DNA of 64,000 nucleotides from a virus (IMGVR_UViG_3300030060_007958:12109-76108), one strand, 5' to 3'; counted from the stretch's first letter, positions 6,630 to 64,000 are shown. Made by a program: numbers and translations. Notes: generated by a model not told the origin, from the sequence alone.

Positions 6630-6639
6630 TGGGTGTAAA

Positions 6640-8011: not shown

Positions 8012-8934
8012 GAATTTTAATTACCGGAGGCACAGGAATGGTTGGTTCTGCTTTTAATAATTTAAAAACAGAACACGAGTTGATACCAGTAGGCTCGTCA
8101 AAATATGATTTGGTTTCTTGGTATGACACTATGTGTATGATCGAGAATATAAAACCAGATGCAATTATACATCTAGCTGCAAAGGTTGGTGGAATTAGAG
8201 CAAATTTAGAAAATCAGGGAGATTTTTATACAATAAATACCATGATTAATACAAATGTGTTAAGAGCAGCAAAAAACTATAATGTTAAAAAAGTAGTTTC
8301 TCTTTTGAGTACATGCATATATCCAGATTTAGTAACATATCCCCTTACGGAAGATCAAATACATAGTGGCCCACCGCATAATTCTAATTTTGCATATGCA
8401 TATGCCAAAAGAATGCTTGATATACAATCTAGAGCTTATAGGGATCAATACGGTTGTAATTTTATAACAGCTGTACCAAATAATTTGTTTGGAAAAAATG
8501 ATAATTTTGATTTGCAAAACTCACATGTAATTCCGGCAATAATTAGAAAAGTTCATGAAGCAAAATTAGAAGAAAAAGATATAATATTGTGGGGAGATGG
8601 CAAGTCTATTAGGGAATTTACATATTCACAAGATTTAGCTAAAATACTTTTATTTTTATTAGAAAAGTATGACGAACCATATCCAATAAATATTGGAAAT
8701 AACGTTCAAATTTCAATAAAAAGTTTGGCCGAAATGATAGCGGATATTATGGACTTTGAGGGAAAAATAATCTGGGACACTTCTAAACCAAAGGGTCAAT
8801 ATAAAAAGCCATCTGATAATTCTAAATTGTTGGAACTTGGATGGGAAAAAAATAAATATACAAATTTGAGAAAAGCGTTGACAGATACATGCAAATGGTT
8901 TATAATTAATTATCCAAAAGTAAGGGGAGTATAA
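8008..8934 (+). CDS. fcl: GDP-L-fucose synthase
   Basis: A 308-residue short-chain dehydrogenase/reductase of the GDP-fucose synthase (Fcl/WcaG) type. It converts GDP-4-keto-6-deoxymannose to GDP-L-fucose by 3,5-epimerisation and NADPH reduction. T-G-G-T-G-M-V-G-S at residues 6-14 is the dinucleotide-binding loop. [10 protein letters not shown] and S-T-C-I-Y-P are family-specific blocks, and Y-A-Y-A-K holds the catalytic Y-x3-K pair. Length matches the family. It sits directly before gmd with a one-base overlap, so the two steps from GDP-mannose are encoded together. It presumably supplies GDP-fucose to the transferases upstream. Confidence 0.92.
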
Positions 8935-9896
8935 TGAAAACCGCGTTCATAACAGGTGTAACAGGACAAGACGGGTCTTATTTGGCTGAATTTTTATTAG
9001 AAAAAGGATACAGAGTAGTTGGAATGAAAAGAAGAACATCCTTAATTAATACTGATAGAATAGATCATATTATTGATAATAAAAATTTTCACTTAGTTTA
9101 TGGCAACTTAATTGATGTTGGAAACATATATAGGATATTGATGAAATTTAAACCTGATGAAATTTATAATCTAGGTGCCCAATCTCACGTAAGGGTTTCT
9201 TTTGATACACCAGAGGAGACGGCAGAAGTTGTGGCCATGGGTACTTTGCGTATTTTAGAAGCAATGAGAAATATTTGCCCAAATGCCAGATTCTATCAGG
9301 CTTCTTCTTCGGAGATGTTTGGAGATAATCCACAATACCCACAGAGTGAAACAACTAGACTTATGCCAGCTTCTCCTTATGCCTGTGCCAAGGTATTCTC
9401 TCATAATTTAGTTAGAAATTATAGGGAAAGTTACGGTTTGCATACATCTTCAGGGATTCTATTTAATCACGAGTCTCCTCGTCGTGGAGAAACATTTGTA
9501 ACTAGAAAAATAACTATGGCCGCTGCAAAAATTAAAAAAGGCTTACAAGATAAATTATATTTAGGAAATTTAGATGCAAAAAGAGATTGGGGCCATGCCA
9601 AAGAATATGTTGGTGTTATGTGGCTAATGTTACAGCAAGATACACCAGATGATTATGTTATTTCTACAGGAAAAACTTATAGTGTAAGAGATTTTTTAAA
9701 TATTGTTTTTGAACATGCCGAATTAGATGTCGACAAATACGTTGAGATTGATGAAAGGCTTTATAGGCCACACGAAGTACCAATATTGCTGGGAGATAGT
9801 AGAAAAGCAAAAGATAAATTAGGGTGGCAAAGTAAAGTATCTTTAAAAGAACTCGCAATAGAAATGTACGAAGAAGATTTAAAAAAAATAAAATAA
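8934..9896 (+). CDS. gmd: GDP-mannose 4,6-dehydratase
   Basis: A 320-residue GDP-mannose 4,6-dehydratase, the first committed enzyme of GDP-L-fucose and related deoxyhexose synthesis. [11 protein letters not shown] at residues 7-17 is the NADP-binding loop. A-S-S-S-E-M-F-G carries the active-site Ser/Glu, Y-A-C-A-K is the Y-x3-K catalytic pair, and N-H-E-S-P-R-R-G-E is diagnostic for this enzyme against other sugar dehydratases. It is about 50 residues shorter than the E. coli enzyme, which is common among short forms. It is the last gene of the glycan operon; the following 75 bases hold a promoter for the next operon. Confidence 0.95.
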
Positions 9897-22529: not shown

Positions 22530-25500
22530 GTATAAAAGATCTTTTTAGTCAAAATAGAAATTATAAAATCTTTTCCGATAGTGATTCGGTAATAAGAAAA
22601 GATGCAGAATCAATAGATAACGTAGCCGAAACAAAAAAGAATCAAAGTTTATTTATTCCTACAGTGGATTTTTCTTTAGCATCGAACTTTGTTAATTATG
22701 GATCTGCAGAATTATATTATTCTGATGCCATCACTAGAATATATGAAGATTATCCATATGATGGATCTTCTAAAGAAAGGGAAGAGTTTTTAAATAAATC
22801 AACTTATCTGGATTTGTGGTTATTGGATAACAAATACCCGCGTACAAACGGATTTATTACTATTTCTGCTACAGGATGGGGATCTCTCTCAACAGCCCCA
22901 GATGCTACAACAGCATACTACGGAAATCCTTCTGATAAAGAGTATATATCTCTTTTTGGAGGCCCTCATACGGCCTCTGACGGCATGATTAATAAAAAAC
23001 TTAGCTCAACTTTCGATGATTCTAACAAGTATGACACTGATATATATAATAGCGAAGGTTTCGTTGGCACTGGTACAAGAGAAAGTAACTTAAAAACAAA
23101 TTTTGATAACGGAGTAACCGTAGAGTTCTGGTTGAAAAAAGAATCTTTTGACAACTCAAAAACGCAAAAGGAGGTTATTTTCGATTTATGGAACAATACA
23201 ACCTCTTCTGCTGCCTCATATGGAAGATTATTATTACAATTAACAGGCACAGCCGGCACATCGCCGTTTATTTTGACAATTCAGTCAGGCACATCAGCAC
23301 CTTATGAAGAAGCCTCTTTTGGGTCTTCTTTGACAACGGCATCTTTAGAAACATTCGGGCATTATGCTTTTAGGGTATATAAAGGAACTGATATGCCCCC
23401 CGAACTAAAAGTGGATATGTATAAAGATGGAAATCTTATTGAATCTAAGGCAGTACCTTCCGCTATTTCAGAAATAACAGGAGCACTACAGGCCAACATT
23501 GGCTCATTGACCAGTCCAGCTGTTTCTTCTTCGGCAGAATATGCAAATCTTGGGTGGGGTAAATTATCTGGCTCGATTGATGAATTTAGATTTTGGAAAA
23601 CAAAAAGAACTGCCGAAGAAATAGGTAGAAATTGGTTCACTCAAGTATATGGCGGAAGCAACACTGACGTTGCTAATACTGATTTGGGAGTATATTATAA
23701 ATTTAATGAAGGTATTACGGGAAATGACTCACTAGACTCGACGGTTCTTGATTATTCCGGAAGAATTACTAACGGCCAATGGACGGGGTATAATACTTCC
23801 GCTAGGTCAACAGAGTCAGCAATGGTTATTTCCAATGCAGCGACTTCAGAATTTAAAGACCCTATTATATATCAGTCACACCCGGATGTGGTATCCTTGA
23901 TTGCAGAAATGCAAACTTCTGGATCAAATTATGATGCAAATAATCATTCATCTATAATGAATAAATATCCAATTTGGATTATCGATGAAGACCATGCCAC
24001 CGGCGGCGACTTAAAAAGGATGACCCAGATCGTATCTAGCTTTTTAGACACATTGCATCTTCAAATACAAGAACTAAATAAACTTAAAGATATCGGATAT
24101 ACAGATAGTGCAAATAAAAACTTACCATTTTCAAATAGGCTATTATTAGATTACGGATTTGTGGCACCTGAAATTTTTGCCGATGCAGATCTTTTAAACA
24201 CGATTATGTCTCGCGGCGAAACAAAAGATTTTAAAGAAACACTGCCAGAAATAAAGAATACTATTTATAAAAATATTTATAATAATATTGTCTCTATTTT
24301 TAAATCAAAGGGAACACATAAGGCTTTTAGAAATCTTATTAGATGTTATGGGATTGATGATAAAATAGTTAGAGTAAATTCTTATGCAAACAATTTAACT
24401 TACGATTTAAAAGAAAACAAAAGATATTCAACAATAAAAAGGAAATTTATTGATTTTTATAGGGCAGATAATTTTTATGGCACAATTTATCAACAAACTT
24501 CATCTGCCAACCCACTTTCTACTTCTTTTATATCTGCCTCTCAAAGTTCCCTTGAAGATTATATTTCATTTACTTTAGAATCAGAAATTATAACTCCAAA
24601 AAAGAGAAAGAGAAATTCTAGAGATTTTTATGCCACTCCGTTTGTAACATCTTCTATCTTTGGTTTCCATACGGCTATACCAGCTACCCCAGCCGATTTA
24701 ACATGGGCATCTACAGATTATGACATTCAGGCTTATGCGATTCTTCCTCCTGATAACGGAAATAATAAGGCAGGATATTTTCTTTTAACAAGTTCATATT
24801 ATGGGATAGAGAAGAAAACATCTCTTATAGAAAATTTATATGATAATAAAAAATGGAATTTGTCGCTTACCTTAACTCCATCTAAAAAAGATGCAAACTT
24901 AGTTTCTGGATCTTCGATAACTGATTACGATATAAAATTGTATGGAATAAATACATATTCGGATGTTGAACAAACAGAATTTACACTAACAGATACCATC
25001 ACAACCAGTGGAGAAAAATTATTAACAGAGCCAAAAAGAATATACGCTGGAGCACACAGACAGAACTTTACAGGATCTGTAATTCACGGATCCGATATTA
25101 AACTTTCTTCTGTCAGATATTGGGTAAATGCCTTAGAAGATTCTGTAATAAAGAATCATTCTGAAAATTCTGATAATTTTGGTTCAAGACACCCACTAAG
25201 GAACGTCCACAACTTTGTAACTTCAATCGGAAACGTCGAAATTCCACAAATAGACACACTGGCACTGCATTGGGCGTTTAATCAAATAACAAGTTCAGAT
25301 GCCGGATCAGGAATTCCTTCAGTGGATGATGCCGGCTTTGATTTATTAGATATGTCATCCGGTTCATCGGATATACAAAGTAGATATAGTTGGCTTGGTA
25401 ATGTAGTGGGCACCCCACATACAGGCCGTGGAGACCTATTTTATCCAAATGATACTAGAATAGTAAATTCAGAATTTATACCAGTTGCGATTCAAGAAAA

Positions 25501-28500
25501 TCCAGAAGTCGTAGGTGCAGATAACACTGTAAAAGTATTGAGTGAGGCAGAGGAACAGCTTTTTAATAGGCAAACTAGGCCAACTACATTTACTTTTATG
25601 GCCGAAAAGAGCATGTATGCCGCCATCAGCGACGAAATATTGAATTATTTCTCGACAATACTTGATTTTAACAATCTTATTGGAGATCCTGTAAATAAAT
25701 ATCGACAAGAATACAAGGCCCTTGGTAAATTAAGATCTTTATTCTTTGAAAACGTACAAAACGAGCCAGATGTTGAGAGATACATTGAATATTACAAGTG
25801 GATTGATGATTCTCTTGGATATATGTTAATGGAGCTATTCCCAGCATCGGCAGATAAGCAGGAAGGCTTAAGAAATATGATAGAAAGCCATATTCTTGAG
25901 AGAAATAAATATTGGAATAAATATCCCACAGTTGATTTAAAGCAAGATATACCAACAGCAGGTATAAGAGGCATTAATGAATTGACGTATAATTGGGAAG
26001 AAGGACACGCTCCAGTAAGTTTATTACAAAATGAGAACTGTTTTTGGTGGAAAAATCGCGCAGAAAGAGATTCGGGCCCTCTTTCTTCCGGAATAAGTGG
26101 CGTAGACACAGCAAGACAAACAATTTTGTCTGTTGCGCTCTCTGCTTTGAACAGAAGTTACTCCAATCCGCTAAAATATACAGTAAAAAGGGAACAAATA
26201 ATATCATCCGGCGTAAATATTGACAACAATATTAAAGAAAACGTCAAAAAATCAGTAATATTTGGAAATAGTGATGGATTATTAATACCTTCGGCAGATG
26301 TGGAGGGGCTTAAAGACTGTTCCGACGACCTAGAGCTTCAAAATAAAAGAAAAGTACCCTTCAAGCTTGAAAATCAATTAGATCTGGACGATTATATGAC
26401 AGGAAAGGGAGATTTACTCTCTCCTTTTGTTGCAGTCTCATCTTCTGTCCAGCAAGGGTACCAAAAGCTAATAAATGACAATTTTAAGGAAGGATTCGGA
26501 ATAACAAATTTGCACAATGACTCATATGTTGAGAATAACGTGCCACTACAGGGCCCATTTACAGAAAAATTTGTTGGAGGAAATCAAAATAGGCATATTA
26601 AACTAAATCAGGGTTCTGACACGGCTGAAAACCGGCCAGAAGCATGGAAAATGGAGGTAAATGCATCTCCAAACACCCTAAAATTCATCCACCAGCCTAT
26701 AAATCAGCCACGAGCCATGCTATATCGAGGCTTAGTTGCAAAAAGCCCACTAAATATTGCCAATATTAAAACCGACACTGGTACTCACGGAGTTGGCAAT
26801 TACAGTAAGATTTATGAAGTGGTGCAAACAGTAGGAAGGACAATAAATAACTCTTCATTTACGAAAGCGGGTGGCTATTCTCCCGATGAAATTCCATCTA
26901 CATACGTCGCCGGCATGGAAGATTATGCAAAACCACAAAGAGGACGCAGCGCACACGTATTTGTTAATAGATTTTCTTGTCCCGGAGACCCAAATACCAT
27001 GGGCGACTCCAATGGAGGCCCCGGATTAGACATTGCAGCCGCCGAATATTCTCTTTATAATGATATAAACTACAGAAACTGGACAGTTAGGGAGCCACAA
27101 AGGTGGCTTTATGCATCTCATGTTAATCAGTTTGGTTTTTATTCTGATTCTTTCGCAAAAGGCAATGGACCTTCAGAAGTAAATTCATTAAATTACAACG
27201 GTACTGCAAGTATATATCAAGTCAACAGAAACACTATTCATCAAATGAAGGATTCTGGATCAACTACAGTAACAGCTTCTGTTTATGACAACTATTATGT
27301 GCAGCACCCGATACCAAGAACCGATTTACAATATTCTTGGCTGACTGCATCTGTTTTGTCTTATGACGCTTTTGGTTACCTACCATATGATGGAGAGGAA
27401 TCTTTGGTAACATTTTCCTCCGCTAGTGATTTTAGATCAAGAAGTAGATTTAGACCAACAGCTGCAGACTTTAAAGATATAAAATTTGGCAGAGACGTGA
27501 CAAAAATGGGAGGGCCTTTCGCGGCAAGTAGTTTTTATTTCACGTTTTTACCAACAGCTTACAATTGGTTAAATTTAAATACTCGCGAGCCACTAGAATA
27601 TATCAGTTCATCATTAGGATTCTCAGAAAACGACACCGATGTCGAGAGTTATTTGAATAGTAAATTAATTGTGGATGGATTGAATGATGACGGAAAAGCA
27701 TCCCTCCTTAACTCTATATTATTAAAAAGGAATGGTCCCTATCAACACCCAACGTGGAAGCAAATAAGAGGATATGAAAGCCCGCTGGTTAAGAAATGGA
27801 ATTATTCAAATCAAACCGCGTACAATCCGTTTGATAAGAAGATAGAAATATCTTCGCTAAAAGTACCAAGCAAATTAGATGAAAAATTATCCCCATCTCC
27901 ATCAAGTATTAGAAAAGTAAAGAGTGATCCTCCCGTGATATCAAAATACGGACCATCGCAAACACAATTGATTTCAATTGTTGGTGATATATCTTCTTCT
28001 ATTAAATTAAATAACACCTTTGGAAATGAAGTAACATTATTCGCAAATAGAGAAATATCATCAGATTTAAATATACTTTCACAGAATGACGAATTTCTTG
28101 AAAATGAATCAGCTCATGCAGCAGTAGTCGGATTATATGCAGATGGTGCCCTAGATGACAACAATAATCCAATAAAATCTATAAAATACTATGCATCTAA
28201 TGAGCAAATTTATCCTAGCTCTATAAACATGTATTCTAGAATTAATAGAGAAAGAGTTGGGTACAAAAACACATTTTGGAAAAATTCAAGAACAGAAAGA
28301 TCAGAACTTGGCACTGAAAAATTTGGTGGAACAAACTCCCAAGGATATTCTGTTTCACAATCCGCTTGGGCGTTAGACACTTCAGAGCAATTTGGTACTT
28401 CTGTCTCCACTTTCGTTGCTTCTGCATCAAACGATGGTAAGGCAGGAGAACTTCAGAACGATTATACTTTCGCCTACAGATTGATCGGGTCAGATTCGGG

Positions 28501-31500
28501 AAGTAGAGCCGACCTCAAGCCGGGACCTATATATAGTAGGAAATTTACTTTAGGACCATGCTTGGCAGCGGTGGATCCATTCGCGACCTATTCTTGGGTC
28601 GCCGGAACGAAAATATCCATCGGCGGCGGCTATTTTATTTATCCAGTTAAATCAACATTATCAGCATATACAACTTATTTATCAACTGAAGAACAACCCG
28701 GAACCACATCTTGGCCCGGTGGATTAAATAATACTCTTGGCCACCTATCTATTTTCGGCGGCAATGCACAATTTCAAGCTCACGAGCAAGCTGGCTACGT
28801 CGACACTGATGGCACCTTTATATCATCTCCATCTAATCCATTTTATGATAAGTACGAACTTTACAATCAGATCATGAGAGTAAAAAATAAGGACATGTCT
28901 ATAATACCAGAATATCGCATTAGTGATAACGTCGAAAAATATTTAAACAGTAGTGATGGATTTCAAACTAAAAATACGTCCTCTTATTCAATATTTGGCA
29001 TCAATAATAGTAATACGGAAACCGTAAATTACACTAAGAATGATGGAAGTACATCAACATATACAATACAAACATCTAGGGAAGCCCCTCAAAATAGTTC
29101 GAACGGTGAATTTTATAAAACTTACTCACACTCTGATTTTATAGAATATTTTGATATTGTGTCAGAAAAACACGACAAATTTGAAGATATGCCAAAAAAT
29201 TTAACTCTTAAATGTAGTGCATTGAAAAAGTTCATAGCTTATGATGGGTTTTACCCCGCAGAAAGAACTTTAGAAATTGGAAAGGCGTTCAAGGAAGTTT
29301 ATAATGATTCTATTGAGGGGGGTGCTACAACCGGCTCATCAGCCTCTGACGAATTAAAGATGAGGCCCATTTTAACACCCCTATTTTCTCCGGGTATTTT
29401 ATACAATACTATTAAATCAGGAATCGCAGTAGATTATCCAATATATACCAGCTCTTATGAAGTTGTCAGGTATGAAGATAACTCTAGTGGTATAACAGAT
29501 TATTATGCAATCGGTACAGCTAGTAATGATATAGGCCAGTGGCACCACAGAGTTCAGTTCGAGGATATATTAAATCCTTCTAATTTGAAGGATATATCAT
29601 TTTTTGATATGGAACCTCACCCATCATGTTCTTTAGGGTCGCCACGAAATGTTTCGCAAATCAGTGTCGGCCCGAAAAAAGAAAATAAATATAATCTTTC
29701 TATTAATAATTTTTTAGCCTCGACAGTCGATTTCTTTTTGGAAGATTCCGAATTGACAAAAATATCAAGCTTGCAGCAGTCTCAATTCAAGTCTGTTAAT
29801 TCTGGATCCTACTATGGCCTTAGAATAAAAATGAGAAGAAGCGCGAGGGGTCAAAAAAGAGAAGATTCTGATTGGCCAACTCCACAAGAATATTTTTCAA
29901 ATGCAAGCACAACTGCGTGGAAATTAAAAATCGTGCCCCTTGCCTCTCAAGCAACAATTGTAGATGAAGACTATAGAATGTTCACTACTAATATGTACTC
30001 TAGGCCATCTTCATTCGGACCTCCAATGGCGGGCTCTGGAAGTTTTGAAGTCTCCTCAAATGATAGAAATTTTTCATACGCGGCACTTTCTTCTTCGAAT
30101 CCGGCGGTCGAAACAACAATTTCCAAGCCACAAAATTGGATTTACGACGGCTTATATGGTTTCAATGTCTCGCACACTCCTCCTTATTATAACGGAGAAG
30201 CTTGGGTAGATATTATTTATAAGCCTACAACTAGTGGCCAGCCAACAATAGATGATATTGAGGCAAATTCAGAAATAGTTTGTTGGAGAATCGACGGATA
30301 TGATTCAGATACTTGGCCATCTGGAGACATCGGCGCATCTTCTTATCCAATGCACAGCGCAAGTGTTAATAATTATGCAATGCAATTAACTTCATCAATT
30401 AATATATTTAACAGATTGTTTATTGAATCTGATGAAAAGCCTTCCGAAAATAGTCCTGCTTGGTCAGTCCAAACAAAATTTGAAACCCCAGTTTTAAACT
30501 TCGGCCCTTTTGGAAAAGCAGATTATTCAGATAATATTGGAGAATCTACTAAAATATGGGATAACGTAACATTACCATATAAAGACAGTACCCCGTGGAG
30601 TGGTTCATCTGGACAGACAACGACACCAATGGGAATGTGGCACCAGTTTGGTACCATTCCTGACGAATTGGAAAATCAAGGAATCTTTTTAGAAGTTGAG
30701 GATATTCCATCAACTTGGCTAAACACCCGCGCCGCACAGGGAGATATCGCTGAAAAATATAATACCGGTCGTGTGTTTCCCTTATCAAATATCGTTGGCT
30801 TCAATAAAGTCAATAATTCAAAAAACATTGGCCGTTTGGCAAAAACAAAAACAATCTCCGAAGCTGTCGTTGCAGTGCCATTCTATATTGGTTTAAAAAG
30901 CGACACTATTACTGATGTAAATAATAAAACAAAGCAGTATTTTAAGTTAAGCTCGACAAAAGGAGATATTGAAAATGAATTGTCGGAGATGAGAGCCTTT
31001 ACAAATAATTTGGAAGACATGAAGCCGGAATTCATCTTTGGAGAAGATCAGCCTGCATTAAAAGAAAATTTCTTAAAAATAAGAGACAAATATGTTTTCC
31101 CGCCAGAGTTCGATTATTTTAGAAACCCAACAACATCACCAGTAGCTATGTATATTTTTGAATTCCAGCATTCGTTCGATAGAGATGATCTTTCATACAT
31201 CTGGCAAAATATAGCTCCAAAATTTGGAAAAGAAAAAGAAATTGCAAATTATTTTGGAGATATAGAAGATAATACTTCAATACAGGAGGCTGTTGTTAGT
31301 CATCAATTATTCACCGAAGGTAAACAAAATCTTGACGATATTCGAGGCCCAAATGGTGAAAAGGTACAATGGATGGTTTTCAAGGTCAAACAAAGGGCAA
31401 AAGCATCTTATAACAAACTGCTTTTAGCAAATAGCGCAGAAAAAACAAAAGTTTCTGAAAATACAATTAACTATAACTGGCCATATGATTATTTCTCTAT

Positions 31501-31651
31501 GATAGAATTTGCGAAAATAGATTCGAAAATCTCTTATGGCGAAGATCCCAACTTGATTTCAAATACGGGACTATATAAGACTGAAAATGTTGAAGCTGTT
31601 AAATCATACACAGAGGCCATATCACTGGCCAATACCGGAGATGAAGACTAA
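22526..31651 (+). CDS. giant virion protein (3041 residues) with LamG-like domain
   Basis: At 9.1 kb this is the largest gene of the window. The start is taken as ATG 22526, which overlaps the previous stop (ATGA); a non-ATG start 24 bases earlier is possible but less likely. Residues about 188-375 form a LamG/concanavalin-like domain (G-V-T-V-E-F-W-L-K, S-G-S-I-D-E-F-R-F-W-K). Around residues 590-625, N-I-V-S-I-F-K-S-K-G-T-H-K-A-F-R with L-I-R-C-Y-G-I resembles a block of tail proteins that join baseplate and fibre. The rest is mostly beta-rich, with long Ser/Asn/Tyr-rich stretches. A fibre, adhesin or peripheral baseplate role is inferred. No frameshift or internal stop is present. Confidence 0.7.
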   Translation: MSIKDLFSQNRNYKIFSDSDSVIRKDAESIDNVAETKKNQSLFIPTVDFSLASNFVNYGSAELYYSDAITRIYEDYPYDGSSKEREEFLNKSTYLDLWLLDNKYPRTNGFITISATGWGSLSTAPDATTAYYGNPSDKEYISLFGGPHTASDGMINKKLSSTFDDSNKYDTDIYNSEGFVGTGTRESNLKTNFDNGVTVEFWLKKESFDNSKTQKEVIFDLWNNTTSSAASYGRLLLQLTGTAGTSPFILTIQSGTSAPYEEASFGSSLTTASLETFGHYAFRVYKGTDMPPELKVDMYKDGNLIESKAVPSAISEITGALQANIGSLTSPAVSSSAEYANLGWGKLSGSIDEFRFWKTKRTAEEIGRNWFTQVYGGSNTDVANTDLGVYYKFNEGITGNDSLDSTVLDYSGRITNGQWTGYNTSARSTESAMVISNAATSEFKDPIIYQSHPDVVSLIAEMQTSGSNYDANNHSSIMNKYPIWIIDEDHATGGDLKRMTQIVSSFLDTLHLQIQELNKLKDIGYTDSANKNLPFSNRLLLDYGFVAPEIFADADLLNTIMSRGETKDFKETLPEIKNTIYKNIYNNIVSIFKSKGTHKAFRNLIRCYGIDDKIVRVNSYANNLTYDLKENKRYSTIKRKFIDFYRADNFYGTIYQQTSSANPLSTSFISASQSSLEDYISFTLESEIITPKKRKRNSRDFYATPFVTSSIFGFHTAIPATPADLTWASTDYDIQAYAILPPDNGNNKAGYFLLTSSYYGIEKKTSLIENLYDNKKWNLSLTLTPSKKDANLVSGSSITDYDIKLYGINTYSDVEQTEFTLTDTITTSGEKLLTEPKRIYAGAHRQNFTGSVIHGSDIKLSSVRYWVNALEDSVIKNHSENSDNFGSRHPLRNVHNFVTSIGNVEIPQIDTLALHWAFNQITSSDAGSGIPSVDDAGFDLLDMSSGSSDIQSRYSWLGNVVGTPHTGRGDLFYPNDTRIVNSEFIPVAIQENPEVVGADNTVKVLSEAEEQLFNRQTRPTTFTFMAEKSMYAAISDEILNYFSTILDFNNLIGDPVNKYRQEYKALGKLRSLFFENVQNEPDVERYIEYYKWIDDSLGYMLMELFPASADKQEGLRNMIESHILERNKYWNKYPTVDLKQDIPTAGIRGINELTYNWEEGHAPVSLLQNENCFWWKNRAERDSGPLSSGISGVDTARQTILSVALSALNRSYSNPLKYTVKREQIISSGVNIDNNIKENVKKSVIFGNSDGLLIPSADVEGLKDCSDDLELQNKRKVPFKLENQLDLDDYMTGKGDLLSPFVAVSSSVQQGYQKLINDNFKEGFGITNLHNDSYVENNVPLQGPFTEKFVGGNQNRHIKLNQGSDTAENRPEAWKMEVNASPNTLKFIHQPINQPRAMLYRGLVAKSPLNIANIKTDTGTHGVGNYSKIYEVVQTVGRTINNSSFTKAGGYSPDEIPSTYVAGMEDYAKPQRGRSAHVFVNRFSCPGDPNTMGDSNGGPGLDIAAAEYSLYNDINYRNWTVREPQRWLYASHVNQFGFYSDSFAKGNGPSEVNSLNYNGTASIYQVNRNTIHQMKDSGSTTVTASVYDNYYVQHPIPRTDLQYSWLTASVLSYDAFGYLPYDGEESLVTFSSASDFRSRSRFRPTAADFKDIKFGRDVTKMGGPFAASSFYFTFLPTAYNWLNLNTREPLEYISSSLGFSENDTDVESYLNSKLIVDGLNDDGKASLLNSILLKRNGPYQHPTWKQIRGYESPLVKKWNYSNQTAYNPFDKKIEISSLKVPSKLDEKLSPSPSSIRKVKSDPPVISKYGPSQTQLISIVGDISSSIKLNNTFGNEVTLFANREISSDLNILSQNDEFLENESAHAAVVGLYADGALDDNNNPIKSIKYYASNEQIYPSSINMYSRINRERVGYKNTFWKNSRTERSELGTEKFGGTNSQGYSVSQSAWALDTSEQFGTSVSTFVASASNDGKAGELQNDYTFAYRLIGSDSGSRADLKPGPIYSRKFTLGPCLAAVDPFATYSWVAGTKISIGGGYFIYPVKSTLSAYTTYLSTEEQPGTTSWPGGLNNTLGHLSIFGGNAQFQAHEQAGYVDTDGTFISSPSNPFYDKYELYNQIMRVKNKDMSIIPEYRISDNVEKYLNSSDGFQTKNTSSYSIFGINNSNTETVNYTKNDGSTSTYTIQTSREAPQNSSNGEFYKTYSHSDFIEYFDIVSEKHDKFEDMPKNLTLKCSALKKFIAYDGFYPAERTLEIGKAFKEVYNDSIEGGATTGSSASDELKMRPILTPLFSPGILYNTIKSGIAVDYPIYTSSYEVVRYEDNSSGITDYYAIGTASNDIGQWHHRVQFEDILNPSNLKDISFFDMEPHPSCSLGSPRNVSQISVGPKKENKYNLSINNFLASTVDFFLEDSELTKISSLQQSQFKSVNSGSYYGLRIKMRRSARGQKREDSDWPTPQEYFSNASTTAWKLKIVPLASQATIVDEDYRMFTTNMYSRPSSFGPPMAGSGSFEVSSNDRNFSYAALSSSNPAVETTISKPQNWIYDGLYGFNVSHTPPYYNGEAWVDIIYKPTTSGQPTIDDIEANSEIVCWRIDGYDSDTWPSGDIGASSYPMHSASVNNYAMQLTSSINIFNRLFIESDEKPSENSPAWSVQTKFETPVLNFGPFGKADYSDNIGESTKIWDNVTLPYKDSTPWSGSSGQTTTPMGMWHQFGTIPDELENQGIFLEVEDIPSTWLNTRAAQGDIAEKYNTGRVFPLSNIVGFNKVNNSKNIGRLAKTKTISEAVVAVPFYIGLKSDTITDVNNKTKQYFKLSSTKGDIENELSEMRAFTNNLEDMKPEFIFGEDQPALKENFLKIRDKYVFPPEFDYFRNPTTSPVAMYIFEFQHSFDRDDLSYIWQNIAPKFGKEKEIANYFGDIEDNTSIQEAVVSHQLFTEGKQNLDDIRGPNGEKVQWMVFKVKQRAKASYNKLLLANSAEKTKVSENTINYNWPYDYFSMIEFAKIDSKISYGEDPNLISNTGLYKTENVEAVKSYTEAISLANTGDED

Positions 31652-56749: not shown

Positions 56750-58462
56750 ATGTCAATTATTAATAAATTAACAGAAGGCATTGTTAGACGCGATCTCTCT
56801 AAGGAAGGAGCTGCTCTTCTCAATAAGTGGGAAAAGACAGGTCTCTTAGAAGGTCTTACTAATGATCGTACCAAGCATGGTATGGCTGCACTTCTAGAAA
56901 ATCAAGCAAAGGAGCTTCTTCGTGAGTCCTCTGCAATGGCCGCAGGTGATGTCGAAGGTTTCGCTTCCGTGGCTTTCCCAATCGTTCGTCGTGTTTTCGG
57001 CGGATTAATCGCTAACGATCTTGTATCTGTTCAACCAATGAGTTTGCCATCTGGCCTCATTTTCTTCTTGGATTTCACATATTCAGACGAAACAGGTAAC
57101 AGACTTGATTACCGCGCCGGACGTTCAGTCTACGGTGGTGGCAAGGTTGCTGCGGAAATTTCTCAAGGTATTACCCTGAGTGGTCATGATGCAGAGAGCA
57201 GTTTCTATGCTCTTAACAACGGTTATTCTTCACCAACCGCCTCTTCTCCAGTAGGCTGGCACGATCAAGCAGTTGGCGTAGCATCTGGTACTGTTGGTAT
57301 TGCAGGCGCAGACTGGACCGGTACAGCAGCCCTTATTGATGCTAATCCTGATAAGCTACTTCGCTTTGACCCGGATGTTGCTTCTGGATCATTCGCAGCA
57401 ATTTGGCAGGTACCGATTTCAACTTTCCCGAATTTGAACATGAAAGATTATATCACTATTTCTGCTCAAACTTCCGGAGGGACACGCTCTAATGATCAGG
57501 TTCGCCGCCTTACACTTGATGACCCAACAGACGCAAACAACGTTTTGATTGTTATTACTAGTGCTACTTCAGCTAATGCAGCTGCCGCACACGGTAACAC
57601 ACATAACTCTGCAAGTTATATCATCGACGATACATTCACAACTTCAGGTCTTGCACTCGGTGCTGTTAAAGGTACTGATCCATGGGGATTGGAAAATAAT
57701 TCAGCAATTCCAGAAATCGACATCAAAGTTGATTCAATTGCTGTTACAGCCAAGACCAAAAAACTTAAAGCTAAGTGGACACCGGAATTGGCTCAAGATT
57801 TGAACGCATACCACAACTTGGATGCAGAAGTAGAGCTAACTTCTATTCTTTCAGAGCATATTGCTCTTGAAATCGACCAAGAAATCTTGGAAGACCTAAT
57901 CGTCGACGCAACTGCAGGTACCCTTTACTGGTCACGTTTGCCCGGTAAATTCCTTAATCGCGAAACAGGCACTGCCCTTACTTCTTCTACAGCATTCCCA
58001 GACTTCACTGGCAATGTTTCAGAGTGGTACGAGACCCTTGTTGAAACAATTAATGATGTATCAGCACAGATCCACCGCAAGACTTTGAGAGGCGGAGCAA
58101 ACTTCATCGTGGTTTCACCAGAAGTTGCAAACCTTCTTGAATTCACCGCTGGATTCCGTGGAAGCGTCACTCATGACGACGACCGTGGCCAAGTTGGTGC
58201 TGTTAGAGTTGGTTCTTTGAGTAAGAAGTTCGACGTTTATGTTGATCCTTACTTCCCAAGAAACGTTGTACTCTGTGGTCGCAAAGGATCTTCTTTCCTT
58301 GAAAGCGGATATGTATATGCACCATATGTACCACTCCAAATGACTCCTACAATCTTCGGAACCGAGGACTTCGTACCTCGTAAGGGTGTCATGACTCGCT
58401 ACGCGAAGAAGATGGTACGTCCAGATATGTACGGATTGGTTGTTGTTACAGATTTAGTATAA
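56750..58462 (+). CDS. 23: major capsid protein, gp23-like
   Basis: A 570-residue major capsid protein of the T4 gp23 family. The conserved region F-A-S-V-A-F-P-I-V-R-R-V-F starts near residue 68. The preceding segment has [LI]-x-E sites (L-R-E near residue 61, V-E near 67) at the place where gp23 precursors are cut. N-E-R-type turns and G-S-F-L-E-S-G-Y near the C-terminus are also shared blocks. It forms the hexamers of the head. Codon use differs from most of the window: arginine is mainly CGT/CGC rather than AGA, as expected of a very highly expressed gene. AAAGGAGA precedes the start, and a strong terminator follows the stop. Confidence 0.95.
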   Translation: MSIINKLTEGIVRRDLSKEGAALLNKWEKTGLLEGLTNDRTKHGMAALLENQAKELLRESSAMAAGDVEGFASVAFPIVRRVFGGLIANDLVSVQPMSLPSGLIFFLDFTYSDETGNRLDYRAGRSVYGGGKVAAEISQGITLSGHDAESSFYALNNGYSSPTASSPVGWHDQAVGVASGTVGIAGADWTGTAALIDANPDKLLRFDPDVASGSFAAIWQVPISTFPNLNMKDYITISAQTSGGTRSNDQVRRLTLDDPTDANNVLIVITSATSANAAAAHGNTHNSASYIIDDTFTTSGLALGAVKGTDPWGLENNSAIPEIDIKVDSIAVTAKTKKLKAKWTPELAQDLNAYHNLDAEVELTSILSEHIALEIDQEILEDLIVDATAGTLYWSRLPGKFLNRETGTALTSSTAFPDFTGNVSEWYETLVETINDVSAQIHRKTLRGGANFIVVSPEVANLLEFTAGFRGSVTHDDDRGQVGAVRVGSLSKKFDVYVDPYFPRNVVLCGRKGSSFLESGYVYAPYVPLQMTPTIFGTEDFVPRKGVMTRYAKKMVRPDMYGLVVVTDLV

Positions 58463-58489
58463 TCAAATAATATAACCTAAATTTACATG

Positions 58490-58517
58490 CCCCTTCACAA
58501 TTTTGTGAAGGGGTTTT
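58490..58517 (+). terminator. intrinsic terminator after the capsid gene
   Basis: CCCCTTCAC at 58490-58498 pairs perfectly with GTGAAGGGG at 58505-58513 around a six-base loop. TTTT and further T-rich bases (to about 58522) follow directly. This nine-base-pair stem with a T-run is a textbook rho-independent terminator. It lies 28 bases past the capsid stop codon and is the only clear one in the window, suggesting an abundant separate capsid transcript. Confidence 0.88.
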
Positions 58518-58558: not shown

Positions 58559-59827
58559 ATGGCATTCCCAACATTAACACCAGCCAGTCAAATGAGCAAA
58601 TCAGTTTTGCCTCCTACTGGCGCAGCCTCATCGGTAGCAGAAACCCTACCTTTACAGGTTTATTCTACGTCGACTGAATTTTTGTCCGGCGCAGCAGATC
58701 AAGTTGCTTATACATTTAGGAAGCTTGGCGGCGATGTATTAGACATCGAACTAAAAGAGCAAAATGTTTATGCAAATTATCAAGAGGCATGCCTAGAATA
58801 TAGCTATCTTGTTAATTTACATCAATCAAAAAATATATTATCCGATGTATTAGGTCAGGCAACCGGAACTTTCGATAGGGATGGAGAAATATTAACAGGG
58901 CCTGAAGGCGTTAATTTAAAATTCCCAAGAGTAATGTTCGAATATGCCCGCCGGGTATCCGATGGCTTCTCTTTCGAAGCCAACGTGGGGGGTACAATAC
59001 CTATCTACTCGGCCTCATTCGCACTTCAAGCCGGCCAACAAGATTATGATTTACAGGCCATTATATCTTCTTCTGCAGCCTCTGGCGTAGATCCCATAGG
59101 ATTAAACGTACCATATGCCGGGAAAGTGGGTGACAAGAGAGTACTCGTAAAAAAAGTTTATTATAAGACCCCCAGTGCAATGTGGAGATTTTTCGGATAT
59201 TTTGGTGGATTGAATGTTGTAGGTAATTTAAATTACTACGGACAATATACCGACGACTCTACTTTCGAATTAATTCCAACTTGGCAGAACAAGCTTCAAG
59301 CTATGGCGTTTGAAGATAATCTTTATACCAGATTATCTCACTATTCATACGAACTAAAAAATAATAAATTAAGAATATACCCAGAGCCGGCCCTTTTGGG
59401 TACATATCTATATATGTGGGTTGATTTTTCTGTAGTGCCGGCCCCTTGGGAAGATAATGAAGAATTTAATAACGGAACAGATGGCATTAACAACATGAAT
59501 ACCATCCCGTTTGATAATATACCATATAAAAACATTAATGCCATTGGCAAGCAGTGGATTAGGAGATTCTCTTTAGCCTTGTCTAAGGAGACACTAGCTC
59601 AAATTAGGGGTAAATTTCAAACAATTCCGATACCGGGGGAGTCAGTAAATTTAAATTCTTCAGAATTATTATCACAAGCTAAAGATGAGCAAGATAAATT
59701 AAGACAAGAGTTGAAAGAAGTACTGGATCAACTTACATATACGGAAGTGGCAAAATCAGATGCAGAAAAGGTAGAAGCAGTCGAAAATGTACAAAAGAAA
59801 GTGCCAATGCTTATTTTTCAAGGATAA
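58559..59827 (+). CDS. neck/head-completion-type virion protein
   Basis: A 422-residue protein with a strong GGGGGAGG ribosome site. The N-terminal part includes a helical block Y-A-N-Y-Q-E-A-C-L-E-Y near residue 73 and is followed by beta-rich segments. Near residues 375-400 is a charged helix (K-D-E-Q-D-K-L-R-Q-E-L-K-E). Encoded right after the capsid gene, it is in the place where neck proteins (T4 gp13/gp14 class) or head vertex proteins are often found. No exact T4 counterpart can be named by reading. A virion role is likely; the assignment to the neck is inferred. Confidence 0.6.
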   Translation: MAFPTLTPASQMSKSVLPPTGAASSVAETLPLQVYSTSTEFLSGAADQVAYTFRKLGGDVLDIELKEQNVYANYQEACLEYSYLVNLHQSKNILSDVLGQATGTFDRDGEILTGPEGVNLKFPRVMFEYARRVSDGFSFEANVGGTIPIYSASFALQAGQQDYDLQAIISSSAASGVDPIGLNVPYAGKVGDKRVLVKKVYYKTPSAMWRFFGYFGGLNVVGNLNYYGQYTDDSTFELIPTWQNKLQAMAFEDNLYTRLSHYSYELKNNKLRIYPEPALLGTYLYMWVDFSVVPAPWEDNEEFNNGTDGINNMNTIPFDNIPYKNINAIGKQWIRRFSLALSKETLAQIRGKFQTIPIPGESVNLNSSELLSQAKDEQDKLRQELKEVLDQLTYTEVAKSDAEKVEAVENVQKKVPMLIFQG

Positions 59828-59830
59828 AGT

Positions 59831-60700
59831 ATGAGTAGTAGAAAAAAACAATATGATGGATTTCGTCCTTATTTTCAAGATAAAAAACCCGGTGATTCTA
59901 CGCCGGGTCTCAAAGAAATTACTTTTATGCCCTCCACAATCGAAACAATAGATACAGCCTTATATCAGTGGCTTGATGAAGAGCTTAATATTTCTTGCAA
60001 AACAAACGAGGGATTTAAAAAGGTGCCCTTAATTTGGTCAATGCCAGAAAGATCATTCCAAACTAAAGACAATAAAGATCTAAGAAATAAAGATATTTTT
60101 GTTTTACCTGCGATTAGTATAGAAAGGGTATCCATGCAAAAAGATCCTAATTTTAAAGGTGTCGCTTGGTCATTTCTGCCAAGAATTAATGATGCTAAGG
60201 GCGGAGCAATCACGGTTGCAAGGAGAATAAATCAGAAAAAAACTTCTAATTTCGCAAATGCTTCGGCAAAAAAGAGATTTAATCAAAAAACTTTTCCTTT
60301 CAAAAACGAAAAGGTTGTATATGAAACAATAACAATGCCAGCCCCAACATATGTGGCTGTCGACTATAAATTAACAATTAATACAGAATACCAACAGCAG
60401 ATGAATGACATCATTACTCCGTTTATAGCTTACACTGGACAAATTAATAATTTTTCTATGAAATATAACGGTCATAAATTTGAAGGTTTCGTCCAAGGAG
60501 ATTTTTCTCTAGAGAATAATTCTTCAAATCTTTCTGAAGAAGAGAGAAACTTTAAAGCAATGATTAATTTAAAAATACTGGGATATCTCGTCGGATTGGG
60601 CCCAAATGATGAACAACCTAAATTAACGGTTAGAGAATCCGCAGCAGAATACAGACTAATGCGTGAGCGTGTTATAGTCGACGACAAGAAGGATTATTAA
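59831..60700 (+). CDS. virion protein of the neck/tail-completion region
   Basis: A 289-residue basic protein with the helical block I-E-T-I-D-T-A-L-Y-Q-W-L-D-E near residue 38. Beta-rich segments follow, including K-V-P-L-I-W-S-M-P-E-R-S-F-Q and V-A-V-D-Y-K-L-T-I-N-T-E-Y-Q. No catalytic motif is visible. It lies between the capsid-following gene and the connector-type gene, three bases after the former. A neck or tail-terminator role is plausible by position only. Confidence 0.55.
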   Translation: MSSRKKQYDGFRPYFQDKKPGDSTPGLKEITFMPSTIETIDTALYQWLDEELNISCKTNEGFKKVPLIWSMPERSFQTKDNKDLRNKDIFVLPAISIERVSMQKDPNFKGVAWSFLPRINDAKGGAITVARRINQKKTSNFANASAKKRFNQKTFPFKNEKVVYETITMPAPTYVAVDYKLTINTEYQQQMNDIITPFIAYTGQINNFSMKYNGHKFEGFVQGDFSLENNSSNLSEEERNFKAMINLKILGYLVGLGPNDEQPKLTVRESAAEYRLMRERVIVDDKKDY

Positions 60701-60701
60701 T

Positions 60702-61529
60702 ATGTCTGAAGATAACAAGTGGACAAAACCTTCAAATCCCCCTCCTCCTCTATTTCTGGGAGAAAAAGAAAGAAATCTAGTAAAGCAGGTAAATGATGAG
60801 CTTTTAGAGAGGGTTGTCGGACAACAAATAGTGTATTTACCAATATCTATGGAATATACAAATTTTCACCCAATATATGGGGAGGCAATAGAAAAGTCTT
60901 TTCTACCTCCTGTAAGGGTTTATGCTTTGGTTGAATTTGACGGCATAAAAACAACAACCGAGAACTATGGTCTGGATAAAGAAAAATCTATAACTGTTAA
61001 ATTTCACGAAAGAAGATTGCACGAAGATCAAGACCTTATGTTAAGAGAGGGTGATTATGTTCAATATGGCGACTCTTTTTATGAGATTGTATCTCTAACG
61101 GAAGACAGACAACTTTTCGGGCAAATTGATCACATCTTCCAAATATCTGCAAAATGTATCAGAACCAGACGTGGGATAATGGACATGTCTGTCTTGTCCG
61201 ATGACGTTTTGTCTTCTTTAGCTGATGTGGCACAACAGGACACTGTTTCCGGGCCATATCACGAACATGAGCCAAGTATCGTGCGCGTTATATATGTTCA
61301 TGATGTGACGGGAAGCCCTATTTCGGCAGATACTAATTTAAATTCAATTTTGGGAGTAACAGGTCCAGTTGTTCTTGCCGCCGCCGCAATTTTTCAAAAT
61401 GGCCAGAGACAAACTCTAGGATCCGATCCTTCTACAGGGGAATATTATGTCCAAGAGGGCTTTATTCGTAATTCTTATGTGGTCGGAACAAGCAACAGAA
61501 TTCTTTTAGAGGTTTTAACAATAGTATGA
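60702..61529 (+). CDS. head-tail connector-type protein, possibly gp14-like
   Basis: A 275-residue protein. A proline-rich N-terminus (S-N-P-P-P-P-L) is followed by the blocks F-H-P-I-Y-G-E-A near residue 55 and F-H-E-R-R-L-H-E-D-Q-D-L near 101, then R-E-G-D-Y-V-Q-Y-G-D. These resemble a neck protein family of T4-like phages (gp14 class), but I name it only tentatively. The C-terminal 90 residues are a beta-rich domain. Its stop overlaps the DUF444 gene start (ATGA), so the first gene of the YeaH-SpoVR pair is translationally coupled to this virion gene. Confidence 0.5.
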   Translation: MSEDNKWTKPSNPPPPLFLGEKERNLVKQVNDELLERVVGQQIVYLPISMEYTNFHPIYGEAIEKSFLPPVRVYALVEFDGIKTTTENYGLDKEKSITVKFHERRLHEDQDLMLREGDYVQYGDSFYEIVSLTEDRQLFGQIDHIFQISAKCIRTRRGIMDMSVLSDDVLSSLADVAQQDTVSGPYHEHEPSIVRVIYVHDVTGSPISADTNLNSILGVTGPVVLAAAAIFQNGQRQTLGSDPSTGEYYVQEGFIRNSYVVGTSNRILLEVLTIV

Positions 61530-62734
61530 GTATTTTTAGAGAACATAAAACAAATGCAGACCGATCTGCGGCAGACAGAAAGAGGCATAAACAGAAAATT
61601 GATAAGGCCCTGAAAGAAGGTCTTAAAGATGTTGTGGCAGATGAGTCAATTATTGGTCAAGATGGTAAGAAAAAAATAAAAATCCCCGTAAAAGGTATTA
61701 AAGAATATCAATTTGTCTATGGAGAAAACCAAGACAATAAGAAAGCGGGAAGTGCCGGCGATAAAAAAGTCAAAAAAGGCCAAGTTTTAAGAAAGGGCCA
61801 GAAAAAGAAAAAGGCACCCGGTAAAAAAGGATCTAATGAAAAGGGCGACGAATATTATGATGTTGAAGTGACTCTGGATGAGCTGGCAGAATATCTTTTT
61901 CAGGACTTAAAGCTGCCCGATTTAGAAAAAAAGAAATTTAGGTTTATAAAAGACTACAAACCAAAAAGAAGTGGTTTTAGAAAAAAGGGTATGAGATCCA
62001 GACTATCCAAAAAAGAAACCATTAAGAGAAAAATTAGAAGAAAGAAGATGGCCGAAGCCTCTGGTACGTGGGATCCGGAATCTGGAGAAAGATTCCCCTT
62101 TCACAAAGATGATTTAAAATACAAACATATAAAGCTAAAACCCCAGCAAAATAATTCAGCAGTTATTTTTTTCTTAATGGATGTATCTGGCTCAATGGGT
62201 AAAGAAAAAAAATATATGGCAAGAAGTTTTTATTTCTTATTATATCAATTTTTAAGATACAAATACGAAAATATAGAAGTTGTGTTTATATCTCATAGCA
62301 CAGAAGCAAAAGAAGTTAATGAAGATGATTTTTTTAAACGCGGTACTATGGGTGGTACGGTCATGTCAACTGCTCTTGAATTGACAAAAGAAATCATCAA
62401 TAAAAGGTATCATCCATCCATATGGAATATATATACTTTCTATTCAGGAGATGGTGAGAATTGGTCTTTTGATGATCCCAAGACAATAAAGTTGTTTGAA
62501 GAATTAAAAGAAATAAATCAAATGATGTGTTATGCTGAAATTGACCCACTATCACATCCAGAGTCAGATTTGTCAATATTAACAAAATCTTTTAATTACA
62601 ATCAAAGCGAATCAACAAATTTGTGGCAAAAACTAACAAAAATTGTAGATAAAAGCTTTAAGAGAGTAAAAATATCAAAACCAAGCCACATTTGGCCCTC
62701 GTTCCAACACTTATTTGGAGGAAGTAAAAAATGA
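61526..62734 (+). CDS. yeaH: YeaH/YhbH (DUF444) family protein
   Basis: A 402-residue protein of the YeaH/YhbH (DUF444) family, close to the bacterial length. The N-terminus D-R-S-A-A-D-R-K-R-H-K-Q-K-I and the block V-V-A-D-E-S-I-I-G-Q-D-G-K-K-K-I (residues 37-52) are the family hallmarks. A Lys-rich linker follows, and a von Willebrand A-type domain from about residue 210 has the metal site D-V-S-G-S-M-G. In bacteria, YeaH is expressed with the PrkA kinase and SpoVR/YcgB under stress or nutrient limitation; its biochemical role is unknown. Here the gene overlaps the neck gene before it and the SpoVR gene after it by 4 bases each. No PrkA gene is visible in the window. Confidence 0.92.
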   Translation: MSIFREHKTNADRSAADRKRHKQKIDKALKEGLKDVVADESIIGQDGKKKIKIPVKGIKEYQFVYGENQDNKKAGSAGDKKVKKGQVLRKGQKKKKAPGKKGSNEKGDEYYDVEVTLDELAEYLFQDLKLPDLEKKKFRFIKDYKPKRSGFRKKGMRSRLSKKETIKRKIRRKKMAEASGTWDPESGERFPFHKDDLKYKHIKLKPQQNNSAVIFFLMDVSGSMGKEKKYMARSFYFLLYQFLRYKYENIEVVFISHSTEAKEVNEDDFFKRGTMGGTVMSTALELTKEIINKRYHPSIWNIYTFYSGDGENWSFDDPKTIKLFEELKEINQMMCYAEIDPLSHPESDLSILTKSFNYNQSESTNLWQKLTKIVDKSFKRVKISKPSHIWPSFQHLFGGSKK

Positions 62735-64000
62735 AAGACTGGACAATAAAAGAACTGCAAGCTTGGGATGACAAAATTTGTCAAATCGGCAAAGAAAAAT
62801 ATAACCTAGATTGGTTTCCCATCGAATATGAGATACTAAATTATCACGAAATGATTGGCGCAATGGCATACACTGGATTACCTACACATTATCGTCATTG
62901 GTCATTTGGAAAATCTTTTGAAAGAACAATAACAAGATATAATCTGGGCATGGAAGGACTCCCATATGAAATGATAATCAATTCAAATCCATCAATCGCG
63001 TATTTAATGCTTGAAAATCCTATGAGCACTCATTTGTTAACAATGTCTCACTGTGTGGGTCATTCCGATTTCTTTAAAAACAACAGAATGTTTAAGCATA
63101 CGGATCCGGATAATGTGTTATCTCGATTTAAATCAGCCGCAAAACGGGTTCAGGGGTATGTAGAGGATCCCAACATAGGCATAGATCTTGTTGAAAGAGT
63201 GCTCGATGCATGCCACGCAATTCAATATCAAATCCCCAGAACACCCGGCATTTCTAGAATAAGCCAGAAAGAAGCAAAAATGGAGCTTATGAAAAATGTC
63301 AAAGGAAAATTGGATATAGATATCGGATTGGTTCAAAAAGATTATAATTTGCTGGGTTTTATTAAAGAAAACGCCAGAGATCTAGAAGACTGGCAAAAAG
63401 ATTTAATAGAAATGGTTGAACGAAGATCAAAATATTTTGTACCACAAGGTCAAACTAAAATTATGAACGAAGGCTGGGCAGTCCTTATCCATGAAAAAAT
63501 TATGTATGATTTAGAATTGCCAGATAAATATCATTTAGCTTTTTTAAAGACCCATAATCAAGTGGTTAGGCCAATTGTTGGCAGAGTTAATCCATATCAT
63601 CTTGGATATACAATATTTAAAAATATCGAGAAAAAATATGGATTTGAAGAATGTTTATTAGTTAGAGAAACACACGACGACGAGTCATTTATAAGAAAAT
63701 ATTTGACAGAAGAAATCTGTCATGACCTCAATTTATTCAGTTATTCTTATGAGAAATTTTCCGGAAATTACTCAATAAAAGAAATTTCTGACAAAGAAGG
63801 GTGGAAAAGCGTTCGTGACGCTCTAATTAGCAATGTAGGACTTAATTCAGCTCCTATTGTTTATGTTGAAGATTTTGAGAGAAAAACAAATACTCTCTTT
63901 ATAAGGCACGAACATGATGGGAGGGATTTAGAACTATCGTATGCAAATAAAGTATATGATCAAATATGTTATTTGTGGAACGACAACGTAGAATTTATAA
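62731..64000 (+). CDS. spoVR: SpoVR family protein, 5' part
   Basis: The reading frame runs from ATG 62731 to the right edge with no stop, giving 423 residues of a protein that is about 470-510 residues in bacteria. Family blocks include H-W-S-F-G-K-S-F near residue 56, H-C-V-G-H-S-D-F-F near 105 and R-R-S-K-Y-F-V-P-Q near 231. T-K-I-M-N-E-G-W-A near 242 and V-R-E-T-H-D-D-E-S-F near 311 complete the set. SpoVR is needed for spore cortex formation in Bacillus, and its homologue YcgB belongs to a stress operon with YeaH and PrkA in enterobacteria; its biochemical activity is unknown. The start overlaps the DUF444 stop (ATGA). The conserved histidines suggest an intact, metal-binding or catalytic protein. 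Confidence 0.93.
   Translation, partial: MKDWTIKELQAWDDKICQIGKEKYNLDWFPIEYEILNYHEMIGAMAYTGLPTHYRHWSFGKSFERTITRYNLGMEGLPYEMIINSNPSIAYLMLENPMSTHLLTMSHCVGHSDFFKNNRMFKHTDPDNVLSRFKSAAKRVQGYVEDPNIGIDLVERVLDACHAIQYQIPRTPGISRISQKEAKMELMKNVKGKLDIDIGLVQKDYNLLGFIKENARDLEDWQKDLIEMVERRSKYFVPQGQTKIMNEGWAVLIHEKIMYDLELPDKYHLAFLKTHNQVVRPIVGRVNPYHLGYTIFKNIEKKYGFEECLLVRETHDDESFIRKYLTEEICHDLNLFSYSYEKFSGNYSIKEISDKEGWKSVRDALISNVGLNSAPIVYVEDFERKTNTLFIRHEHDGRDLELSYANKVYDQICYLWNDNVEFI

Follow-up and report, generated by a model that had tools for sequence, protein, structure and literature searches.

A PrkA-YeaH-SpoVR system carried by a T4-type myovirus and acquired repeatedly by phages

PrkA, YeaH (DUF444) and SpoVR are widespread in bacteria, and their joint biochemical function is a long-open question. 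Why should a phage carry them? The question is raised by a 64,000-nucleotide stretch of viral DNA (the window), which comprises bases 12109-76108 of the 79,606-base record IMGVR_UViG_3300030060_007958. An earlier sequence-only reading of the window had proposed that intact DUF444 and SpoVR genes follow a virion gene near its right-hand end, and that a PrkA gene might lie just beyond. We examined these genes, their relatives in phages and bacteria, and the possible roles of the system during infection.

The phage encodes a complete system

Family searches confirmed both genes, and the following 3.5 kb of the record, contained in an extended stretch (L002; window coordinate = L002 coordinate + 59891), holds prkA immediately after spoVR, as anticipated:

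61526-62734, + strand: YeaH/DUF444 protein, 402 amino acids (PF04285, E = 1.8e-107)
62731-64032 on the window scale (L002:2840-4141), + strand: SpoVR, 433 amino acids (PF04293, E = 4e-115)
64034-65977 on the window scale (L002:4143-6086), + strand: PrkA, with AAA+ and PrkA C-terminal domains (PF08298, E = 6e-148; PF06798, E = 2e-78)

The three genes (the triad) are clustered and co-directional, and all three families are represented at full length. The SpoVR match spans profile positions 1-404 of the 407 in PF04293, with the reading frame crossing the window edge at 64000 by 32 nucleotides. The prkA ATG (L002:4143) lies one base past the spoVR stop codon; a GTG at L002:4122 would give a longer protein. 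The characteristic motifs are also intact. PrkA has an invariant Walker A motif (GPVGAGKS), the VWA domain of YeaH retains an intact metal-ion-dependent adhesion site (MIDAS; D219xS221xS223, T278 and D309), and SpoVR has 61 invariant columns across 30 viral sequences. In alignments that include the E. coli proteins, the Walker A motif, the MIDAS residues and many SpoVR residues remain invariant. The carrier is a T4-type myovirus, as identified by its Gp23-type major capsid protein (MCP), TerL, portal, head protease and baseplate genes. A T4-type myovirus thus encodes a complete, intact PrkA-YeaH-SpoVR system.

The triad is conserved across a large phage group

Loci were compared by phmmer and then dereplicated, giving 57 viral loci that contain all three genes. 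The order is YeaH-SpoVR-PrkA, almost without gaps, in 56 of them, and the sole exception (L115) has the bacterial order. Bacteria mostly have PrkA-YeaH-SpoVR, with YeaH-SpoVR-PrkA in four Bacillota metagenome-assembled genomes (MAGs); because it varies among bacteria, gene order was not taken as defining the system. A PrkA scan of IMG/VR returned 323 stretches that match phage-type patterns, not all of which need belong to this phage group. The triad can also be split: in megaphage LR756502.1, PrkA-YeaH and SpoVR are about 245 kb apart (at 273885 and 519986; L226 and L233).

The ratio of nonsynonymous to synonymous substitution rates (dN/dS) of the triad against close relatives is 0.01-0.09 where dS is estimable, a range that comes from few pairs because dS is saturated in most comparisons. 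Such low values indicate that purifying selection on the triad is strong across a large phage group. That a phage lineage keeps the whole block in this way suggests one functional unit that benefits infection.

Could the locus instead be an artefact, either bacterial DNA joined to a phage contig or a chance capture with no function? The record is a 79.6-kb fragment, and host genes do occur at the end of another phage record, that of Enterobacter phage LAU1. However, the succession MCP-neck-YeaH-SpoVR-PrkA, with the same junctions, recurs in many independent contigs, and the genes are strongly diverged yet intact, have low dN/dS and form their own clade. Misassembly, which the sequence-only reading had named among the findings that would overturn it, was therefore rejected, and we regard an artefactual origin as very improbable indeed. 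LAU1 itself was rejected as a phage triad: its record carries only near-identical host genes at its end (MN688132.1:1-3308, L232), with a yeaG 97.7% identical to that of E. coli followed by yeaH, which represents host flank or transduced DNA. In Bacillus phage CM1 there is a lone DUF444-like 'sporulation protein' (LC785692.1:104535-105452, L234), with no SpoVR or PrkA in the stretch examined.

Phages have captured the triad more than once

The viral group forms a single clade, with support of 99-100, in the tree of each of the three proteins. The sister of the phage clade in all three trees is a rare, divergent proteobacterial operon, which we call type 2 (support for the sister relation 99 for PrkA, 85 for SpoVR and 77 for YeaH). 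Its PrkA is 55-58% identical to that of the phages, its order is PrkA-YeaH-SpoVR and it is present in single copy. It occurs in 11 of 369 and 11 of 385 sampled genomes of two proteobacterial classes (about 3%), gamma and alpha, which were assigned from the named MAGs at their centre. The tree topology indicates that the phage triad was captured from the type-2 operon or shares a common source with it. The type-2 operon (L146, L147, L235-L245, L265-L284), as the sole copy in these genomes, is apparently an uncharacterised orthologous lineage in its own right.

Not all phage triads fall in this clade. Three megaphages group with canonical YeaG. Other positions are taken by L115, megaphage LR756511 and the Thermus phages, although long branches make the precise placement of the last two uncertain. 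The trees imply at least four separate captures of the triad by phages. Because the triad has been captured repeatedly by unrelated phages, it may well help infection.

Within the main phage clade, MCP and PrkA divergence correlate across 14 phages (rho 0.79, with none of 2000 permutations as high), so the triad has for the most part been inherited along with the core genes of the phage. However, the MCP tree requires at least three changes of triad label, and one record (G019) is placed differently on the MCP and PrkA trees. These discrepancies point to losses or to exchange between phages, and they led us to reject a strict single gain followed by purely vertical descent. The phage clade also contains a 305-kb contig labelled as a Methylococcaceae MAG (TMED69; NHDW01000006.1, L145), which carries phage genes together with a phage-type triad and is probably a mis-binned phage.

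The triad ends a neck-gene unit in one sub-clade

The virion genes of the window lie upstream of the triad, with a scaffold region between the protease and capsid genes. The relevant features are:

18541: baseplate wedge gene, upstream of the virion block
48658: TerL gene, upstream of the triad
50251: portal gene, upstream of the triad
53945: head maturation protease gene, upstream of the triad
56750-58462: Gp23-type MCP gene, upstream of the neck genes
58489-58514, + strand: intrinsic-terminator-like hairpin after the MCP gene, with an 11-bp stem and T-rich tail (consensus match only)
58559-59827, + strand: neck or head-tail adaptor-like gene, first of the unit (weak match to phrog_211, head-tail adaptor Ad2, E = 3e-10)
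59831-60700, + strand: neck-region gene, beside the MCP gene in relatives with and without the triad (assigned from its conserved neighbourhood)
60702-61529, + strand: neck-region gene directly 5' of yeaH, with an ATGA overlap (assigned from its position)
66011-66038 on the window scale (L002:6120-6147): predicted intrinsic terminator after prkA, with a 12-bp hairpin and T8 tail

Family searches gave no match for either the 59831-60700 or the 60702-61529 gene. The description of the latter as neck-type in the sequence-only reading is consequently supported by its position and by the adaptor-like neighbour at 58559-59827, but not by a family match of its own. Its product is 275 residues long in triad-bearing phages. 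Residues 1-161 are common to triad-less relatives, in which the neck genes are in a different order, and the remainder is found only in triad-bearing phages.

A hairpin scan of the unit detected no terminator directly after the neck genes, yeaH or spoVR. Across 54 loci, a hairpin lies within 120 nucleotides of the prkA stop codon in 13 (about 0.4 expected by base shuffling), and none follows spoVR or yeaH. Most of the hairpins 3' of prkA are in the sub-clade of the window phage, where the stem sequences differ yet still pair, which argues that these terminators are real. The hairpin at 58489-58514 is likely to be the upstream limit of the unit. Transcription of the neck genes together with the triad, as one late unit, is probable in this sub-clade, and from its position at the 3' end of a terminator-bounded neck-gene unit the triad is probably made late. 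The T4 late-promoter motif TATAAATA shows no excess in the window (14 occurrences against 10.1 expected).

The sequence-only reading had instead taken translational coupling as the link to the virion genes. The four-base ATGA overlaps are present at both junctions (61526-61529 between the neck gene and yeaH, and 62731-62734 between yeaH and spoVR). However, overlaps of 4 nucleotides are ordinary in the window, occurring at 7 of 43 junctions, and the neck-yeaH overlap occurs in 5 of 14 relatives, for which start codons were picked by the analyst. We therefore rejected coupling as a special conserved feature, and the word 'fused', used of the YeaH-SpoVR pair in the title of that reading, was an overstatement. 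Its proposal of expression with late virion genes fares better: co-transcription with the neck genes is probable, given the terminators after the MCP and prkA genes and the lack of any between, although only one sub-clade has the triad next to virion genes.

Linkage to virion genes is not general

The MCP and neck genes lie just upstream of the triad only in the sub-clade of the window phage. In other clades the neighbours of the triad are a DinG-like helicase gene and a NUDIX-like gene (the latter called by sequence inspection), a gene for a cysteine-synthase-like enzyme of the PALP family, or phoH together with a tubulin-like gene. A tubulin/FtsZ-like gene of this kind, at L060:9585-10781, stands 3' of the triad in several relatives (PF00091 match weak and below cut-off). 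Gene-order comparison thus rejects linkage to virion genes as a general property of the triad.

This bears on whether the triad is a virion-assembly chaperone, in which PrkA and YeaH would form an ATP-driven pair acting on proteins of the neck, tail or fibres, and SpoVR would serve as adaptor. Such a role would suit the place of the triad in the window clade, where it closes the neck unit, and in Thermus phages Lalka8 (between the portal/minor head genes and TerL) and phiYS40 (near TerL and tail sheath). There is also a precedent in the MoxR-vWA pair, which is needed for tail assembly in an archaeal virus and has been proposed to act in jumbo phages (PMC7824862). However, the AAA+ partner here is of PrkA rather than MoxR type, the triad in most clades sits beside non-structural genes, and the bacterial homologues have no virion to assemble. 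The triad is missing from the neighbourhood in relatives that share the neck genes and whose capsid proteins are 58-68% identical, and no SpoVR was found in 20 records of such relatives, three of which are 157-185 kb long.

A VWA protein of the kind proposed for assembly is, moreover, separately encoded in most of these phages. DUF2201_N (metallopeptidase-VWA) is present in 18 of 24 T4-like records, triad-bearing and triad-less alike. In one locus (L043), an AAA_5 ATPase gene (835-1890) lies about 0.4 kb upstream of the DUF2201 metallopeptidase-VWA gene (2279-3523), and these probably constitute a second AAA+/VWA module, the assembly chaperone proposed for jumbo phages. Further DUF2201-type genes occur at L109:250-1479 and in records G001, G002, G004, G011, G015, G017, G808, G820 and others. 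The variable position of the triad, the existence of triad-less relatives and this separate VWA gene together weaken the case for a role in virion assembly, which we consider unlikely, and the virion role that had been proposed from the neighbourhood does not hold as a general rule.

A possible role in sustaining the arrested host

AlphaFold2 models YeaH with a VWA fold, and its structural matches include NorD, of the NorQD complex, and the MIDAS domain of Mdn1, both of which partner AAA+ machines. Comparison with solved structures gave no confident relative for SpoVR (pLDDT 80.7). Two of its motifs, HxxxH and NEG..H, suggested a metalloprotease, but the best fold match, to an M61 aminopeptidase, has an E value of 0.1 and we do not claim this activity; in E. 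coli YcgB the HxxxH spacing is one residue longer. A PrkA relative has been solved (9xip, 9xiq and 9xir, 30 chains over the three entries).

In bacteria the system is associated with starvation and stress. YeaG and YeaH are both required for adapting to sustained nitrogen starvation (PMC4664914). In Rhizobium etli, prkA is the gene most strongly induced by ppGpp and heads the same three-gene operon (PMC3188799). B. anthracis PrkA showed no kinase or protease activity but oligomerises with ATP (PMC13001217), for which reason the name 'kinase' should not be leaned on.

On this basis, the explanation that we favour is that the triad forms a late-made AAA+/VWA/SpoVR machine that keeps the growth-arrested host viable while virions are finished, a tentative reading to which we would give somewhat less than an even chance. 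The three phage proteins would cooperate inside the infected cell in the way that their host counterparts do. If the triad resembles AAA+/VWA pairs, its motor would be PrkA, a ring-forming, ATP-driven remodeller, with YeaH as the metal-dependent VWA adaptor and SpoVR as an effector whose target might be RNA or the regulation of the cell wall. The additional phage-made copies might keep a starved or growth-arrested host alive, with its envelope sound, in late infection, so that virion production would not be cut short.

Several observations weigh against this explanation. Sister phages manage without the triad, and expression late in infection may not be the rule, since in other clades the triad lies apart from late genes. 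The role of the host proteins is itself disputed, kinase activity having been reported for E. coli YeaG (PMC4664914) but none detected for B. anthracis PrkA (PMC13001217). In addition, loss of yeaG in E. coli raises metabolic activity, so the module could equally impose quiescence.

The last point leads to the alternative that the triad drives the host into dormancy, so that infection would be slow or resemble pseudolysogeny. During prolonged nitrogen starvation, yeaG favours a metabolically inactive subpopulation of E. coli (PMC4664914), and Jurgensen et al. suggested that the 'sporulation' genes of viruses promote persistence of the host (PMC8940887). Expression late and with the neck genes, as predicted for the window clade, is nevertheless a poor fit for establishing dormancy, and no lysogeny genes were found among the subset of proteins scanned. 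We judge imposed dormancy to be rather unlikely. The triad might alternatively alter the cell surface or wall so as to block competitors, membrane attack or suicide defences, serving in envelope protection, counter-defence or superinfection exclusion. This would accord with the link between YeaH/YcgB and antimicrobial-peptide resistance (PMC2375023) and with the action of SpoVR, which also cross-links to RNA, in spore cortex formation (PMC12456014); we hold it to be distinctly unlikely. Of these readings we rank support of the growth-arrested host first, then virion assembly, then imposed dormancy, with envelope protection or counter-defence last. A broader proposal, under which phages have convergently captured the triad (at least four times) as an infection module that sustains productive infection in growth-arrested hosts, is possible, although we think it doubtful.

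If this proposal is correct, the phage copies would be compact systems shaped by natural selection that would reveal the function of a widespread bacterial machine. Our findings also call into question the reading of viral spoVR in ocean viromes as an isolated 'sporulation' auxiliary gene, because spoVR here belongs to a stress system found also in non-sporulating bacteria. The gene was reported to be the most abundant sporulation-type gene among viruses of the eastern tropical North Pacific (ETNP) oxygen minimum zone (PMC8940887).

Other features of the record and its relatives

Among 50 related records searched, Gp23 was found in 13, all of at least 114 kb, and a tail sheath protein in eight above the family cut-off, with weaker matches in six others. 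Beyond the terminator that follows prkA, a gene for a LamG-domain protein runs off the contig. Within the window, a single open reading frame at 22502-31651 encodes 3049 amino acids, including a LamG-like domain, and its product is probably a giant protein of the tail or for receptor binding, and 369-9896 holds a cluster of phage-borne surface-sugar genes (glycosyltransferases, GDP-mannose 4,6-dehydratase and epimerase). Upstream of the window in the same record (L003) are a ClpP-like protease gene (L003:7074-7685) and, at the contig start (L003:132-686), an open reading frame in which the motif NMWGSxVH is repeated about seven times. Near L003 position 12100, at the left edge of the window, X residues in a translated open reading frame indicate ambiguous bases or a small scaffold gap.

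Comparison with known systems

The sequence-only reading had held that phage use of this module was not described functionally. This stands for function, but phage SpoVR and PrkA had been annotated before, in Thermus phage records (which carry annotated triad-family genes), in the Ralstonia jumbo phage RsoM2USA (PMC8504454) and, for spoVR, in the ETNP viruses. In the open-access literature (subscription papers and preprints being outside the search), we did not find the complete triad described as a conserved phage module, nor its repeated capture.

Like the phage triad, the bacterial prkA-yeaH(DUF444)-spoVR(ycgB) operon (E. coli yeaGH with ycgB; R. etli CH02817-02815) is a co-directional block of three full-length genes with Walker A and MIDAS motifs. 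The phage system differs in being phage-borne at the end of a neck unit, in having the order YeaH-SpoVR-PrkA rather than PrkA-YeaH-SpoVR, and in sequence, its proteins being 31-33% identical to those of E. coli and only 33-38% identical to canonical E. coli-type proteins. The type-2 operon is sister to the phage genes in all trees, but is rare, bacterial-chromosomal and in the order PrkA-YeaH-SpoVR.

Among phages, Thermus phages phiYS40, TMA, phiLo, MN1 and Lalka have the same DUF444-SpoVR-PrkA order, which was examined in three of them and is interrupted by an additional gene in phiYS40. PrkA identity is about 34%, and they lie on a separate branch, reflecting a separate capture; a functional study of them was not found. 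These phages are cultured, which makes the question raised by the host operon testable. Megaphages LR745206, LR756502 and LR756504 also carry SpoVR, PrkA and YeaH, but fall with canonical YeaG, at 62-65% identity to E. coli, and have the genes in the order PrkA-YeaH-SpoVR or dispersed. RsoM2USA, known here from its paper and absent from the trees, carries SpoVR and PrkA. Finally, the MoxR AAA+/VWA pairs (in ATV tail assembly, jumbo phage group 2.2 and NorQ-NorD) share with the triad an AAA+ ATPase and a VWA/MIDAS partner, whereas in the window phage the ATPase is of PrkA type with its own C-terminal domain, and SpoVR is present as a third partner.

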